64,000 bases of DNA from an uncultured Verrucomicrobiota bacterium (GTDB lineage Bacteria > Verrucomicrobiota > Verrucomicrobiia > Verrucomicrobiales > Verrucomicrobiaceae), in assembly GCA_903848465.1 (NCBI GenBank), contig CAINGK010000072.1, positions 1 to 64,000 on the forward strand. The letters run 5' to 3'. Positions 56,877 to 64,000 of this stretch are shown piece after piece (positions within the stretch are counted from its first letter, which is position 1; every line of letters starts with the position of its first letter). The notes under the pieces were generated by a model. That model saw only the letters and a list, made by a program, of their open reading frames with translations, ran no database searches and was not told the origin of the DNA. Position numbers and translations under genes: made by a program.

Positions 56877-57031
56877 GGTGACTGCGTGTTGGGTGGGTGG
56901 TGCAGGTGTCTTGGTTGGAGGCACCGATAGAACGGCAAGATGTGGGCGGGAAACGCTAGGTGCGCAACCGGGATGCGTGCTCGTGCTTCCGCAAAGGGGC
57001 TATGGCGGACGGTGATCTATCCGGCACACCT

Positions 57032-58219
57032 TCACGCCAGCCACTCTGCTATCGCTGCAATCACTTCGTTGCGCTGCGCTTCGCTGAGTTCGCCGTAGAT
57101 CGGAATGCTCAGCACCTCTCCTGCGACACGATGGGAAATTTCGCAGCCTGAAAGCGATGTGGCGGGCAGGTCCGCAAAGCACTTCTGCTGATCCAGCGTG
57201 ACGGGATAGTAGATGTCACAGCCGATCTTTTTGGCCACCAGATGGTCGCGCAGGGCATCACGCTGGCCGCCGAGCACGCGGATGGTGAACTGGTTCCAGA
57301 TGTGCTCGTTGTGAGCGTAGCTGACGGGAAGCACGATCCTGGCGTTCTGCGCTGTCAGCCAAGTGTCCTGCGTATTCACGCATTTGCAGTGCGCAGGATC
57401 TGCCTGCACCACGCCGGGCAGTTTCGACATGGCCTCGATGTAATGCGCGGCATTGCGCTGACGATCCGCCGTGTATTGCGCGTAGCGCTTCACTTTCACG
57501 CTCAGCAGCGCGCATTGCAGCGTGTCCATGCGGAAATTGCCACCGACGTAGTGGTGGTAATACTTGGGCTTGCCGCCGTGTACGCGTAGCACACGGGCGT
57601 ACTCGGCCAGTTCGTCGTCATTCGTCACCAGCATGCCGCTGTCGCCAAAGCCACCGAGGTTCTTGCTCGGGAAGAAACTGTAGGTGCCGAAATCACTCAT
57701 CGTGCCGCTGCTTGTGCCCTTGTACCTCGCGCCGATCGACTGCGCGGCATCCTCGATCACTTTGAAGCCGTGTTCCTTGGCCAGCGCGAGGATGGGATCC
57801 ATGTCCGCGCATTGGCCGAAGAGATGAACGGGGATGATCGCTTTGGTCTTGGCGGTGATCTTTTTCCGGGCGTCGTTCACGTCCATATTGAAGCAAACAG
57901 GACAAACGTCTGTGAACACCGGAACGGCACCGAGGCGCGACACAGCTCCCGCTGTGGCAAAAAAGGTAAACGCAGGGCACAGCACCTCATCACCAGGCTT
58001 GATGTCCAGCGCCATAAGAGCCAGCAGCAGAGCATCGGTGCCGGAGGAAACTGACAGCGCGTGCTTCACACCCACCATGGCCGCGATTTCTTTTTCAAAG
58101 GTCTCCAACTCCGGCCCCATGATGAACCTCCCGTGATGCAGCACCTGAGTGAAGGCGGCCTGGAGTTCGGATTCGAGTGGCAGGTTCTGGGCGTTGACGT
58201 CGAGAAGTGGGACGGGCAT
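57032..58219 (-). CDS. DegT/DnrJ/EryC1/StrS sugar aminotransferase
   Basis: A 395-residue PLP enzyme. The family blocks are clear: V-S-S-G-T-D-A-L, D-E-V-L-C-P-A-F-T-F, the PLP contact E-D-A-A-Q-S-I-G-A and the PLP-binding lysine in S-F-F-P-S-K-N-L-G-G-F-G-D. It makes amino sugars from nucleotide-linked keto-sugars, for surface polysaccharide or a modified glycan. No nucleotide-sugar genes are adjacent. The ATG at 58219 is chosen; the leader carries ATTC heptamers. Confidence 0.93.
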   Translation of the reverse strand: MPVPLLDVNAQNLPLESELQAAFTQVLHHGRFIMGPELETFEKEIAAMVGVKHALSVSSGTDALLLALMALDIKPGDEVLCPAFTFFATAGAVSRLGAVPVFTDVCPVCFNMDVNDARKKITAKTKAIIPVHLFGQCADMDPILALAKEHGFKVIEDAAQSIGARYKGTSSGTMSDFGTYSFFPSKNLGGFGDSGMLVTNDDELAEYARVLRVHGGKPKYYHHYVGGNFRMDTLQCALLSVKVKRYAQYTADRQRNAAHYIEAMSKLPGVVQADPAHCKCVNTQDTWLTAQNARIVLPVSYAHNEHIWNQFTIRVLGGQRDALRDHLVAKKIGCDIYYPVTLDQQKCFADLPATSLSGCEISHRVAGEVLSIPIYGELSEAQRNEVIAAIAEWLA

Positions 58220-58238
58220 GGCAAGAAATGGCAAAGAT

Positions 58239-58258
58239 CGAATGATGAATGACGAATG
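58239..58258 (-). repeat. ATTC heptamer repeats before the aminotransferase gene
   Basis: On the minus strand the leader reads ATTCGTC-ATTCATC-ATTCGAT, ending 20 bases before the ATG at 58219. The core GAATGACGAATGGC (plus strand, 58245-58258) is identical to 32421-32434 before the UDG gene. Confidence 0.6.
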
Positions 58259-58278
58259 GCAGGCGTGCCAGCGATTCC

Positions 58279-59517
58279 TTAATCCGTCAGTTTGGGCCAG
58301 CCGCCCACCTCCTCCTGAGAGTGGACCACCGGCTGGAATTTTTTCTCACGAACACTGGTAATGACGCGCTGATCCACCGCATCGCGGGCGTGGGAGCATC
58401 CGGTGCTTTCCAGCACGCTGCGCAGCACGTCGTCCGGGCTTTGCAGCGGTATCGGGGTGGGGCTGGAGAACACTGCCTGCTCCTGCATCTGCTTTAAGGC
58501 GTCCTTCATGAGCTCTTCTCGTCCTTTCGTGTCACTGAGCTTTACAAGTTTGCGATCATCCACAAAGGCGCTCACACCGGAATGAACGCCATGCTTCATC
58601 ACCGCCTCGATGGCGGGGCGCTTGGGATCGCCGAGATACACATTGCCGATGAACTGGAACGCGTAGCCCTTGGCTGTGGCTTCATCTTTGTGGTCCTCAA
58701 TGCCCGTGGTGTAGCGCGAGCCCGACTTCTGGTAGTCAAACATCACATTGTTCACCGCCTCCATCTGCACCGCGTAGTCATCGCCCTTGCGCATGTCATT
58801 GGCTTCGAACTGAGGGCCACGCATGACATAGCGGGCGAACAGGCAGTGGTGTACGCTCATCGTGTCTGCGCTGGAGTTGAGGCAAAAAGCGTGATTGTCG
58901 CCATACGGATGCAGTTCGGGATTGCTCAGCGGCTCCGCAAGAATGCACCACTGCACCGTCACATTCTGGCAATGCACCACGCTGAAAAGCTCATCGCAGC
59001 TCCAGGAGGTGGAGACATGGTCGATGATCGCGTCATGACAGCGTGTGAGGCCGATGCAATCCAGCGCGTTCGAGTGCTCCGGGCGCTTCAGATTCTGCTC
59101 ACGGTTTTTGCGCTTCGTCGTTTCATCCCCCAGTCGAACCCGGATATGTCTGACGATGATGTCATGCGTTTCTTTGAACTCCAGCGACCCGCCGCGCAGG
59201 CAGACACCCATCCCTGGAGCATCGCCACCATCAATGGTGATGAACGGTTCCCTGATCTCGATCTCGTCTTGAAGCACAATTGTCCCCGCCACACGAAACT
59301 TCACGATGCGGGGTCCCTTCTGCATCACCGCCCAGCGGAAGGAACCTTCCCTCGGTTTTTTCAGATCATCGTCCAGCCGGATTACCTCGATGATTTTTCC
59401 ACCTTTACCGCCTCGTGCAAAAGCACCGAAACCGGCGGCGTCATCAAACGCGAGCTCATGTTGAGCAGCGGCGGACACCTGGCAGATGAGGAGAAGAGCA
59501 ATGGCATGGCGAAACAT
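58279..59517 (-). CDS. Secreted pectate lyase-like parallel beta-helix protein
   Basis: A 412-residue protein with a signal peptide (residues 1-18). The first part contains F-G-A-F-A-R-G-G-K-G-G and R-I-V-K-F-R-V-A-G-T-I, and the middle has A-L-D-C-I-G-L-T-R-C-H-D-A-I-I-D-H-V-S-T-S-W-S-C-D-E, matching pectate/polysaccharide lyase family 1 relatives. It probably acts on plant or algal polyuronates, but the family includes members with no lyase activity. It lies 60 bases upstream of the aminotransferase on the same strand. Confidence 0.85.
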   Translation of the reverse strand: MFRHAIALLLICQVSAAAQHELAFDDAAGFGAFARGGKGGKIIEVIRLDDDLKKPREGSFRWAVMQKGPRIVKFRVAGTIVLQDEIEIREPFITIDGGDAPGMGVCLRGGSLEFKETHDIIVRHIRVRLGDETTKRKNREQNLKRPEHSNALDCIGLTRCHDAIIDHVSTSWSCDELFSVVHCQNVTVQWCILAEPLSNPELHPYGDNHAFCLNSSADTMSVHHCLFARYVMRGPQFEANDMRKGDDYAVQMEAVNNVMFDYQKSGSRYTTGIEDHKDEATAKGYAFQFIGNVYLGDPKRPAIEAVMKHGVHSGVSAFVDDRKLVKLSDTKGREELMKDALKQMQEQAVFSSPTPIPLQSPDDVLRSVLESTGCSHARDAVDQRVITSVREKKFQPVVHSQEEVGGWPKLTD

Positions 59518-59577
59518 GCCTGCTCAACGAAGCTTGCGCGCCAAAGTTTATGCCTTCTTGCATCAACACTCACCATG

Positions 59578-59907
59578 TCAGTTGATAGACCAACGCACGA
59601 TTATTCCCGCGAAAAGGCTGGCGGCATTGGCCACAAGAGATGCGAGCCAGGGGCGCGGCACACGCCAGCAGCAGCCCCACAAGCCCTCCGTTCCGATGGC
59701 GAAACACTCTGCAGCGATCAACACCGTGGCATATGGCATGGACTCCCAGGGCAGGCAGAACCAGATGACCGGGTGTGTGATCGTGCTCGCACCAAAGGCA
59801 TACGCTGCACGTTTCAGCACGGGCAGAGAGCGTGCGGCACGCAGATAAATAGGCACCTCGATCAGTTGGGTGAGCAGAAAGGCACCCGACCAGTCATTCA
59901 CGCTCAT
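59578..59907 (-). CDS. Small polytopic membrane protein, pairs with the next gene
   Basis: A 109-residue protein with three or four membrane segments and conserved-looking polar residues: T-Q-L-I-E-V-P-I-Y, T-H-P-V-I-W-F and E-C-F-A-I-G-T-E-G. Such polar groups inside helices often bind a cofactor or a substrate. I do not recognise a family. Its start overlaps the stop of the larger membrane protein by four bases (ATGA), so the two are probably made together. Confidence 0.7.
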   Translation of the reverse strand: MSVNDWSGAFLLTQLIEVPIYLRAARSLPVLKRAAYAFGASTITHPVIWFCLPWESMPYATVLIAAECFAIGTEGLWGCCWRVPRPWLASLVANAASLFAGIIVRWSIN

Positions 59908-60935
59908 GCGATGGCCTCCAGTCGTGTCGGACGCTCGACAAACAGCCAGGTAGCGGCGATCAATTCCAGGTAGCCATGAAACAGTGCCATGCGCAGGTAG
60001 TTTTCCCGCGCAGCCGTCAGATCAAAGGAAGCCCACAGCGCTATACCGAGCGAAAGCAGAATGACGAAAACCATCAACGGCGTGCCGACATCGGCCGTGA
60101 GGGCACGCGCGCTGGCGCGAAAGGTGCGCGGAGTTTCCTGCGGTCGGTCATCCTCCGGGATCAGGCGCAGCCAGACGCCGTAGTGAACTGATTGCGCGAA
60201 GGCGAACAGCAGCACCAGCCTGAGCGCCCACGGCTCGGCGAGGCCCGGAGCCAGAAACGAAAGGTGATACCCCGGCCCTAGGCCCGCAGGCTGCCATGCG
60301 AAGCCTCTTGCCCACGGTTCCAGCCATCCCATCACCAGCATGACGGAGGCAGTGAGAAACAGCACCGGTACCACGGCCTGTTGCCGTTGCCCGGAGCGTG
60401 GCCGCCAGCACCACCAGAGCATGACAGCGATGAAATTATGCGCATGAGCAAACACCAGTACCGCCACGTCTCCCACCACCCAGGCAGCCACCATGAGAGC
60501 TATGATAAAAGTCAACGCGACCATTTTGCGGAACCATGCTCCGCTTGCGAGCAGGGCCATCGCTACGCATGCCGCCATTCCGCTGGTCATGCTGTAACGG
60601 GACGTTCCTGCCAGCAGCAATGGAATGCCCACTGGCAGCCAAAGAGCGAGACGTCGGTGCAAGCCAGGGCGCAGCACCAGATAACGTACATCTGCCACCA
60701 GATGCGGCACACCTAGCACGACCGGCCCCAGAGCCAGTAGCCAGAAAGGCGAGAGCAAAGTGGCCGCCAATGAGAAACCCACCACGGCGCAACCTGCGGC
60801 CATCACTCGTAGTTCACGCCGACGCACCAGGGGCTTCGCCAGTGGGCCGAGCAACTTCAGCAGCAGCCAGCGCAGGCGGTCCAACGGTGTCAGGATCGCA
60901 GTCGCACTGGCACGGAACTGGGAGGCGGGATTCAT
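59904..60935 (-). CDS. Polytopic membrane protein with membrane histidines, unrecognised
   Basis: A 343-residue protein with eight or nine membrane segments. Four histidine motifs lie in or next to them: G-V-P-H-L-V-A-D-V-R-Y, V-F-A-H-A-H-N-F-I-A-V, Q-S-V-H-Y-G-V-W and L-F-H-G-Y-L-E-L-I. The pattern recalls membrane di-iron enzymes or haem-binding proteins, loosely like Brp/Blh carotene dioxygenases, but I cannot assign it. The stop overlaps the start of the small membrane partner. Confidence 0.7.
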   Translation of the reverse strand: MNPASQFRASATAILTPLDRLRWLLLKLLGPLAKPLVRRRELRVMAAGCAVVGFSLAATLLSPFWLLALGPVVLGVPHLVADVRYLVLRPGLHRRLALWLPVGIPLLLAGTSRYSMTSGMAACVAMALLASGAWFRKMVALTFIIALMVAAWVVGDVAVLVFAHAHNFIAVMLWWCWRPRSGQRQQAVVPVLFLTASVMLVMGWLEPWARGFAWQPAGLGPGYHLSFLAPGLAEPWALRLVLLFAFAQSVHYGVWLRLIPEDDRPQETPRTFRASARALTADVGTPLMVFVILLSLGIALWASFDLTAARENYLRMALFHGYLELIAATWLFVERPTRLEAIA

Positions 60936-60985
60936 GAGAATGTGGATTGACGCTTCTCTCGCGGGCCGTCATGATTCTGTCCGTC

Positions 60986-61156
60986 ATGAGCATCAAGCGC
61001 CATCTTTTTCCTATTGTCGGTTCCTTCATCTTGATGGCGGATATTCCGCCACCCAATGCTCCCAAGCCTGCTCCACCCTCGAGCCCAGGCTGTACGATGA
61101 GCAAACCAGGACGCATGGCCGAGGCGATTGCAGCGGCCAAGCTGCGCAAGGCTTGA
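60986..61156 (+). CDS. Short protein, possibly secreted, unrecognised
   Basis: From the ATG at 60986 the frame gives 56 residues: a hydrophobic start (I-K-R-H-L-F-P-I-V-G-S-F-I-L-M-A), a Pro-rich linker (P-P-P-N-A-P-K-P-A-P-P) and a basic Ala/Lys end (A-E-A-I-A-A-A-K-L-R-K-A). It lies between a divergent and a convergent gene, so it would be its own unit. Start and reality are uncertain; the ATG at 60947 is an alternative. Confidence 0.4.
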   Translation: MSIKRHLFPIVGSFILMADIPPPNAPKPAPPSSPGCTMSKPGRMAEAIAAAKLRKA

Positions 61157-61165
61157 TCCGTTACA

Positions 61166-62917
61166 TCACATCCGCTCCGTCGTCTGAATGCCCAGCAGGC
61201 CGAGGCCTGTTTTAAAAACGCGGCTGGTGGCTTCGCAAAGGGTCAGGCGGGTGTTGCGGGCGGTGCCTTCGGAACGGAGGACGTGGCAGGCTTCGTAGAA
61301 GCTGTGGTAGGTGTCTGCGAGTTCGTAGAGATAATTGGCCAGCAGGTTCGGGCGGTGGTCGTCGAGGATGTCGTGGGCGTTTTCGGCGAACTGGGCCAGC
61401 TTCATCGCAAGAGCGCGCTCGGCGGGCTCGGTGACGGCGAGATCATCGGTGAGAGTCACTTCGCCATCGAGCTTGCGGAAGATGCTGCGGGTGCGGACGT
61501 AGGCGTTGATGAGGTAGGGTGCGGTGTTGCCTTGCAGTGAAAGCATCTTGTCCCAGCTAAACTTGTAATCGGTGAGGCGGTTCTGGCTCAGTTCGGCATA
61601 TTTGACGGAACCGCCGCCAATGATGCGGGCGATTTCGTCCTTCTCGGCATCGCTAAGGCCTTGCTCTTTTTCATCGGCAGCAGTGCGGGCACGCTCGATG
61701 GCTTCGTCGATGACCTCCAGTAGCCCGACGGTTTCACCACTGCGCGTTTTGAACATCTTGCCGTCTGGTCCCAGAATGCTGCCGAAGGCGATGTGGATCA
61801 TCTTCGTGGTGATGCCACGGCGCTGCGCTGCGGCGAAAACCTGGCGGAAGTGTAGCTGCTGGGGAGCACCGACGACGTACCAGATTTCATCGGCCTGCCA
61901 TTCCTTCACGCGGTAGTCGATGGTGGCGAGGTCGGTGGTGGCGTAGAGGTAGCCGCCGTCACCTTTGCGGATGATGCAGGGGGCGGGCTTCCACTCGTCT
62001 TTGTCGCGAATCAAGAAGGGGTCGTTCTCGGGCTTCACGCTGCCGTCGCTGAAGACCACCGTGGCACCTTCGCTGATCGTGGCGATGCCTTGATTGAGCA
62101 TCTCGGCCACCAGCGGAGCCAGAGCGTCATTGTAGAAACTCTCGCCCAGGTAGTGGTCGAACTTGATGTCGAGCGCACCGTACACTTTTTCGAGCTGTTC
62201 GAGCGTGAGGCGCACGCATTCCTTCCAGATGCCGAGGTTTTCGGCATCGCCCTGCTGCAACTTCACGAGTTCACTTTTGCAGGTTTCGAGCACGGCTTCA
62301 TCTGCCTTTGCGGCGGCGTTCACGGCTTTGTAAACACTGACCAGTTCGTGAATTGGGTCCGCCTTGAGCTTGGATTGGTCGAGCTGCGTCTTCCAGCCGT
62401 GGATGATCATGCCAAACTGCGTGCCCCAGTCGCCGACGTGATTGTCGGTGATGACCTTGTGGCCGATAAAGCGCGCTACGCGGGCCAGCGAGTCGCCGAT
62501 GAACGTGCTGCGGATATGGCCCACATGCATCGGCTTGGCGATGTTGGGCGCGGAGAAATCGACCACGATGGTTTTTGCTTTCTCCACCTGGGGCACGCCG
62601 ACGTGGTCGTCTTTGACAATGACGGAGAGCCTCTGGGCCAGCGCGGCGGCGCTGAGCGTGAGGTTCAGAAAGCCCGGGCCATCCACGGTGATTTTTTCAC
62701 ACAGGTCTTCGACCTTGAGCGCCGCCTTGATCTGCTCTGCGAGCGCCCGTGGATTCGTCTTGAGCTGCTTGGCCAAGATCATCGCCGCATTGCTCTGGTA
62801 ATCGCCAAAACGCGTGTCGGAGGCGATGACGACACCGGGAGTGAAACCTTCAGGCAGATCAATGCCGGCGGCGGTGAAAGCAGCTTGGAGACGGGACGTG
62901 AGGAGGGCGCGAAACAT
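61166..62917 (-). CDS. argS: Arginyl-tRNA synthetase
   Basis: The 583-residue class I synthetase that charges tRNA-Arg. The N-terminal Add-1 domain is followed by the HIGH-type motif in P-N-I-A-K-P-M-H-V-G-H-I-R-S. The KMSKS-like loop is replaced by G-K-M-F-K-T-R-S-G, as in most ArgRS. The C-terminal anticodon-binding domain ends with the short tail T-E-R-M. It is complete, with 68 bases before it to the stop of the unknown gene upstream. Confidence 0.96.
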   Translation of the reverse strand: MFRALLTSRLQAAFTAAGIDLPEGFTPGVVIASDTRFGDYQSNAAMILAKQLKTNPRALAEQIKAALKVEDLCEKITVDGPGFLNLTLSAAALAQRLSVIVKDDHVGVPQVEKAKTIVVDFSAPNIAKPMHVGHIRSTFIGDSLARVARFIGHKVITDNHVGDWGTQFGMIIHGWKTQLDQSKLKADPIHELVSVYKAVNAAAKADEAVLETCKSELVKLQQGDAENLGIWKECVRLTLEQLEKVYGALDIKFDHYLGESFYNDALAPLVAEMLNQGIATISEGATVVFSDGSVKPENDPFLIRDKDEWKPAPCIIRKGDGGYLYATTDLATIDYRVKEWQADEIWYVVGAPQQLHFRQVFAAAQRRGITTKMIHIAFGSILGPDGKMFKTRSGETVGLLEVIDEAIERARTAADEKEQGLSDAEKDEIARIIGGGSVKYAELSQNRLTDYKFSWDKMLSLQGNTAPYLINAYVRTRSIFRKLDGEVTLTDDLAVTEPAERALAMKLAQFAENAHDILDDHRPNLLANYLYELADTYHSFYEACHVLRSEGTARNTRLTLCEATSRVFKTGLGLLGIQTTERM

Positions 62918-62985
62918 GGGTGGCCTGCCTCATAGTATGGTGTGGCGGGCAGTTCAATCACGAACACGGCCCGCTGCCGTTACCC

Positions 62986-64000
62986 TTATTCATTCAGTAC
63001 CGGCTCAGGCACGACCTTGAGCTTTTTGTCATAACACTGGTCCGCTTTCATCTGTTTGACCTGTTCTGGCAGTTTTTCAAAGGATGATGATGTGGATTTG
63101 GTCAGGACAATCTCACCGCTCGGGCCAGTGACCTGCACCACCCAGCCTTGATATTTGAAGCCAAATTTGGCACCCGTCGTGTCGAATTGAGTGGTGACAC
63201 TGGGCAGCTTGTTTTCAAAAGTTTGCCGAACAGGCAGGGACACGGGGAAACTCGCGCGTTGCAGTACCTTGATGACCTTCATGTCGATGGTGCTTTCGCC
63301 GTACAAAATGAAATTCAACGTGTAGCCTTCATAGGCTTGCGTGGGGGAGGCATTGGTCAGTTTAAGGCGGGGATTGATCACCTGCATCTCATCGTCAAAA
63401 TCACCGCCTTCGGTTTTGGTAGGACGGCCCAGCATGACCTCAATTTTGACATTGTTGCCGAAGGGAGCTTTCGAGGTCGCTGTCGCGAGCGGCATGGGCG
63501 CAGGTGGTGGCATGGCGGGCGGTGCCGGGGTGGTCGTGGGAGCCGATGCCATCACTGGGGTGACTGGCTTGGATCCACCAAGACTGGCGAGCAGTGCATC
63601 GCAGCGGGCAACGCCCAGGCGATCACCCGCTTGCTGTCGTTTGGCTGCGAGACCCCTGACACCGCTTCCGAGCTTTTGGCGCATGCTTTCGGCAGATTCC
63701 TGGAGGCGCTGTTCGAGCTGCGCGGTCTGCTGGCGATAGATGCCACGCAGACGTTTGTGATCGCCCGAAGTCGCGGCGTCGGTGGAAGGATCGGGGACGG
63801 GTTGCCCCGCAGCGATGGCATTCGCCTCGGCGCGCATGGCGAGTTGGTCTTTGGGAGAAGCTGTGACAGCAGAGCGATTCAATGCAGCACCGTACTTGGT
63901 GGTGAGTTCGCGGAGTTGCTCATCGTTAGTCAGCGAATTGGGCGGGGCTGATTGAGCGCGCAGGGCAGCGAGTTCCGGGTCAAACTTTCCCAGGTTCGCT
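62986..64000 (-). CDS. Unrecognised protein, N-terminus beyond the window
   Basis: The frame stays open through 64000, so the N-terminus is missing; a TTG at 63882 is not a convincing start. The visible 337 residues contain a charged helical part (L-E-Q-R-L-Q-E-S-A-E-S-M-R-Q-K-L), a Pro/Ala/Met-rich linker and a C-terminal beta domain with repeated aromatic strands (Y-T-L-N-F-I-L-Y-G, F-G-F-K-Y-Q-G-W-V-V-Q-V). The layout, helical part then linker then beta domain, suggests an envelope protein. I do not recognise a family. Confidence 0.75.
   Translation of the reverse strand, partial: ANLGKFDPELAALRAQSAPPNSLTNDEQLRELTTKYGAALNRSAVTASPKDQLAMRAEANAIAAGQPVPDPSTDAATSGDHKRLRGIYRQQTAQLEQRLQESAESMRQKLGSGVRGLAAKRQQAGDRLGVARCDALLASLGGSKPVTPVMASAPTTTPAPPAMPPPAPMPLATATSKAPFGNNVKIEVMLGRPTKTEGGDFDDEMQVINPRLKLTNASPTQAYEGYTLNFILYGESTIDMKVIKVLQRASFPVSLPVRQTFENKLPSVTTQFDTTGAKFGFKYQGWVVQVTGPSGEIVLTKSTSSSFEKLPEQVKQMKADQCYDKKLKVVPEPVLNE

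Follow-up and report, generated by a model that had tools for sequence, protein, structure and literature searches.

We show that two membrane proteins encoded in the window (the whole stretch of 64,000 nucleotides analysed here), a 343-residue protein (BIG) and a 109-residue protein (small), are inherited together with a short, predicted exported protein (the product of the third gene) as a module of up to three proteins, and are not an isolated pair. The three proteins look like a cell-envelope module. In the likeliest single reading of its function, to which we give a probability of about 35%, BIG and small would form a membrane machine that depends on metal, recognises the mature Asp-x-Pro-Pro (DxPP) end of the third protein and matures that protein. 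The preliminary description of this DNA presented a two-gene unit. The pair itself stands, and its reading frames overlap by four bases exactly where described. The unit was incomplete, and the divergent exported ORF of 56 amino acids beside it was overlooked. The unit looks larger and looser than a pair, since it includes a third protein, some genomes have small but no BIG, and BIG's place can be taken by an MFS-like protein. The features are as follows.

BIG, 59904..60935, minus strand: 343-aa polytopic protein with an ATG start (sequence, alignment, confident AlphaFold model with pLDDT 89).
small, 59578..59907, minus strand: 109-aa protein with about four membrane helices and an ATG start (alignment, confident AlphaFold model with pLDDT 94.5).
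Overlap, 59904..59907, minus strand: shared ATGA, containing the stop codon of BIG and the start codon of small.
Third gene, 60986..61156, plus strand: predicted exported 56-aa protein, divergent from BIG; MSIKRHLFPIVGSFILMA followed by DIPPPNAPKPAPPSSPGC..., with A-D-x-P-P at the presumed signal-peptide end.
Alternative start of the third gene, 60971, plus strand: in-frame ATG upstream of 60986.
Putative promoter-like site of the third gene, 60947..60975, plus strand: TTGACG, 17 nt, CATGAT (intergenic sequences, conserved in relatives).
Arginyl-tRNA synthetase-like ORF, 61166-62917: the third gene is situated between BIG and this ORF.

The position of the promoter-like site suggests that the third gene starts at the ATG at 60986. 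Rfam gave no match over positions 57000-63000 of the window, and a plasmid tblastn search gave no match. When compared with relatives, BIG showed a dN/dS of 0.09-0.16 and small a dN/dS of 0.12-0.21. Because these ratios are low and homologues are present in 27 genomes, the two ORFs are not due to chance; BIG and small are real families under selection. The 27 BIG relatives came from a scan of 84,980 species genomes and could mostly be identified as Verrucomicrobiales or Myxococcota-type. Among the genomes searched, both families were found only in the Verrucomicrobiales and the Myxococcota. BIG is present in 11 of 56 close relatives of the window genome, in 1 of 387 genomes sampled from its phylum, and in 30 of 235 Myxococcota genomes; small is present in 58 of these 235.

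Neither protein could be placed in a characterised family, as the preliminary description had stated. Using Pfam and NCBIfam scans and a PDB sequence search, we obtained no credible family match for BIG and nothing credible for small. Pfam scans of their distant relatives yielded no family, and isolated single-member matches were taken as chance. Comparison of the two models using Foldseek and VIA-align gave nothing above the common helical background, which is not proof of a new fold in either case. As far as the libraries searched tell, the BIG and small families and their link to a DxPP protein are new.

The third protein of the window begins with basic residues and continues with a hydrophobic stretch, which is followed by A-D-I-P-P-P and one Cys. 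At many loci, among them almost all of the verrucomicrobial ones, BIG has as its neighbour a short ORF in which A-D-x-[A/P]-P likewise comes after a signal-like stretch. Within 600 nt of BIG or small, we counted 29 ORFs with the strict pattern, whereas their frequency farther out at these loci predicts 0.85, which is a 34-fold enrichment. The strict pattern is present at 24 of 51 loci, and the looser variants ADSLPP, ADVVPP, ADLLP and GDIPP raise this count further. The dN/dS of the third gene (0.03-0.17) indicates purifying selection. Among the 56 close relatives, a strong match to the third gene (E<1e-15) was confined to the nine genomes of the same genus that have BIG, and each of the nine had one. 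In these nine genomes it always adjoins BIG, in one or two tandem copies. Tandem third genes in several Prosthecobacter relatives (L002, L003, L004, L006) lie about 100-530 nt from BIG and comprise a short form (ADxPPGGPGC) and a longer form. We found no published description of the DxPP motif of these exported proteins.

The AD-x-P start is common to nearly all third proteins, and their middles vary freely in length and sequence. This pattern is expected if the DxPP end is recognised. Most Myxococcota copies have an end made up of a Cys, a hydrophobic segment and Arg, resembling a MYXO-CTERM tail, whereas the verrucomicrobial copies do not carry such a tail. Thus, the common element of the third proteins is the start and not the end. 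With the MYXO-CTERM model TIGR03901, whose cut-off is 20 bits, the third proteins of L015 (22.5) and L021 (21.1) pass and that of L016 (18.1) falls below; the window copy gave no match.

The co-conservation of BIG and small was confirmed. In the Myxococcota, small occurs in 27 of 30 genomes with BIG and in 31 of 205 genomes without it (Fisher P 3e-16). We made the same comparison for the third gene in 224 Myxococcota genomes, the genomes that supplied rows of the third-gene profile being left out. It turned out that small was present in 15/15 genomes with a strong third-like match and in 34/209 others (P 2e-11); both P values are too small, because the tests ignore shared ancestry. Nine Myxococcota genomes have a strong third-gene match and no BIG, and all nine have small. 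The arrangement of the genes, unlinked and independent, points in the same direction. In several genomes small is not linked to BIG; in the L016 genome, BIG and an unlinked small (L016 and L090) each adjoin their own DxPP (ADVAP) gene, and in L168, L238 and L245 the third gene and small are adjacent without BIG. The third protein is more closely associated with small than with BIG, and the third proteins found without BIG indicate that BIG is not essential to every DxPP protein. We found no convincing small in the L022 genome, which has BIG, and no small beside BIG at L037.

In the BIG tree, the root of which was set on one long branch, the verrucomicrobial proteins group in a single clade (support 0.994) that lies within those of the Myxococcota. 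Therefore, the gene set probably crossed between the phyla once, and the direction of this probable transfer is inferred. Single loci showed further variation. BIG is split between two frames in a same-genus genome (G027, L006:7965-8985, also L035/L039) in which small and two third genes are intact; the split may be genuine or may stem from the assembly. Another Verrucomicrobiales genome has a short piece of BIG, degraded and interrupted by a stop, possibly a remnant (L038, G044:C79:8431-8667). In one Myxococcota genome (G278), there are two BIG copies on different contigs (L112, L113), and small adjoins only one of them. An 8-TM protein in L170 was considered as a divergent BIG and ruled out, being AbgT.

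The four His motifs noted earlier in the larger protein proved to be invariant: H78, H166, H251 and H320 are present in 32/32 sequences of an alignment reaching down to 19% identity. In the same sequences P63, G75, Q248, Y252, P260, Y313 and E324 are also invariant, H164 is nearly so, and residue 82 is Asp except for Glu in the most distant member. A very distant BIG in L244 keeps the His sites, and its neighbour is again MYXO-CTERM-like. In 28 sequences of small, the invariant residues are A9, E17, H45, P46, E67, E74 and N94. Helix limits taken from the model and positive loop charges read off the sequence suggest that the four His helices of BIG are parallel, with the His near mid-membrane. 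Such an arrangement would fit one metal centre better than two haems, and a metal site in BIG is likely.

We propose the following mechanism. The third protein would be exported and cut after Ala, so that the N-terminal Asp-x-Pro-Pro is left just outside the inner membrane; in the Myxococcota, it may often be additionally anchored through the MYXO-CTERM-like tail. Its constant membrane partner would be small. BIG would be the second membrane subunit, in which the four His, with D82 and E324, may bind one or two metal ions. The BIG-small complex would recognise the mature DxPP end, after which the DxPP protein would be modified or processed in a metal-dependent manner. Both membrane proteins carry invariant His and acids, which speaks for such maturation, as does the density of invariant polar residues in BIG. 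Against it, the DxPP gene does not accompany every BIG.

The MFS-like substitution favours transport instead. In this close alternative, BIG together with small would transport a metal ion or a small ligand, which the DxPP protein would bind or deliver on the extracytoplasmic side. At L167 and L235, in two genomes, BIG's exact place between the third gene and small is taken by an MFS-like protein, an arrangement that fits transport better than catalysis. The two MFS-like proteins are 45-48% identical to each other and match Pfam MFS_1 weakly (E 0.06). Many third proteins are small and cysteine-bearing, which is also consistent with this function. However, the dense invariant His, Asp, Glu, Gln and Tyr of BIG look catalytic or cofactor-binding, the third proteins of L069 and L081 have almost no soluble domain, and no metal-regulator or metal-transport neighbour is conserved at the BIG loci. 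Although an MFS-like protein can take its slot, BIG itself has no Pfam match to MFS; the fold tables contain no convincing match either, which is not proof. A broader formulation is more doubtful again: the module might represent a new class of machine with small as the core and BIG or the MFS-like protein as an optional subunit, recognising the mature N-terminal Asp-x-Pro-Pro, shared among the Myxococcota and transferred once to the Verrucomicrobiales.

A very distant membership of BIG in the Brp/Blh carotene dioxygenase superfamily is unlikely; BIG would then be a four-His non-haem iron oxygenase with a lipid or carotenoid as substrate. Both BIG and the Brp/Blh beta-carotene 15,15'-dioxygenase (PF15461) are polytopic and have four conserved His in the same order. 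The GVPHLVAD of BIG (G-V-P-H-x3-D) resembles the Blh motif GxPHGxxD (G-x-P-H-G-x2-D), but the Gly that follows the His in Blh is absent. The local P value of hhalign at motif 1 was 0.006 to 0.03, and motif 3 was co-linear in other runs. However, the hhalign probability was 2-6% and at least 1 of 60 window-shuffled controls reached a higher score, so that the profile-profile similarity is near noise. PF15461 matched none of the BIG sequences scanned (P0001 and the members of alignments A1 and A7), and Foldseek of BIG against viral models and the PDB gave no match. Unlike Blh, BIG has no rhodopsin or carotenoid neighbours and has a co-conserved 109-aa partner and a DxPP protein; the latter would be left unexplained. 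In the window genome, the carotenoid gene family PF04240 had no match. The proposed check for nearness to carotenoid or respiratory genes showed neither to be a conserved neighbour across the loci examined, and the sulfatase, SDR, ABHD18, MacB, glycosyltransferase and cytochrome c neighbours are not conserved across loci. The likeness of BIG to Blh is only suggestive: it is possible that BIG works like Blh, and its membership in Brp/Blh is not supported. Among the 56 relatives searched, Blh itself occurred only in genomes without BIG (L041-L044), and the ORF adjoining it in L043 and L044 looks like a microbial rhodopsin.

We consider it improbable that the His bind haem b and that the pair is an electron-transfer subunit. 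In favour of such a role, the invariant His lie inside the membrane and cytochrome c genes occur near L109 and L168. However, four parallel helices that each carry a single His, all at similar depth, are unlike the usual layout in cytochrome b families. The cytochrome genes are not conserved neighbours, and Pfam and NCBIfam cytochrome families did not match the BIG or small of the window. Finally, the DxPP gene is missing beside BIG at several Myxococcota loci, as if it were a passenger of a functional BIG-small pair, which is hardly credible given its enrichment near BIG and small, its purifying selection, its exact genus-level co-occurrence and its association with unlinked small genes.

The module can be compared with dedicated sorting systems of exported proteins. 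The known sorting tag MYXO-CTERM is cleaved by MrtX; lipidation of the Cys of MYXO-CTERM proteins is presumed and ascribed to an enzyme yet to be found (PMC11980579). As in the MrtJ and JDVT-CTERM or MrtX and MYXO-CTERM systems (PMC11980579), the gene of a membrane protein stands in our module beside that of a short exported protein, and the third protein of the Myxococcota, like MrtX targets, often carries a MYXO-CTERM-like tail. Unlike the myxosortases, BIG and small have no Pfam match to the CPBP protease, either in the window or among the members of both alignments. Unlike the targets of MrtJ and MrtX, the third proteins share an N-terminal DxPP as their common element, and the verrucomicrobial copies are tail-less. 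MrtX and MYXO-CTERM are described phylum-wide, whereas BIG (30/235 genomes) and small (58/235) are patchy; the pair as a general enzyme of MYXO-CTERM lipidation was thus ruled out. The module nevertheless bears on the question of this lipidation in myxobacteria, since proteins of this class lie next to it. Recognition of the DxPP end, if it takes place, would make this end an N-terminal signal of a new kind for envelope proteins.
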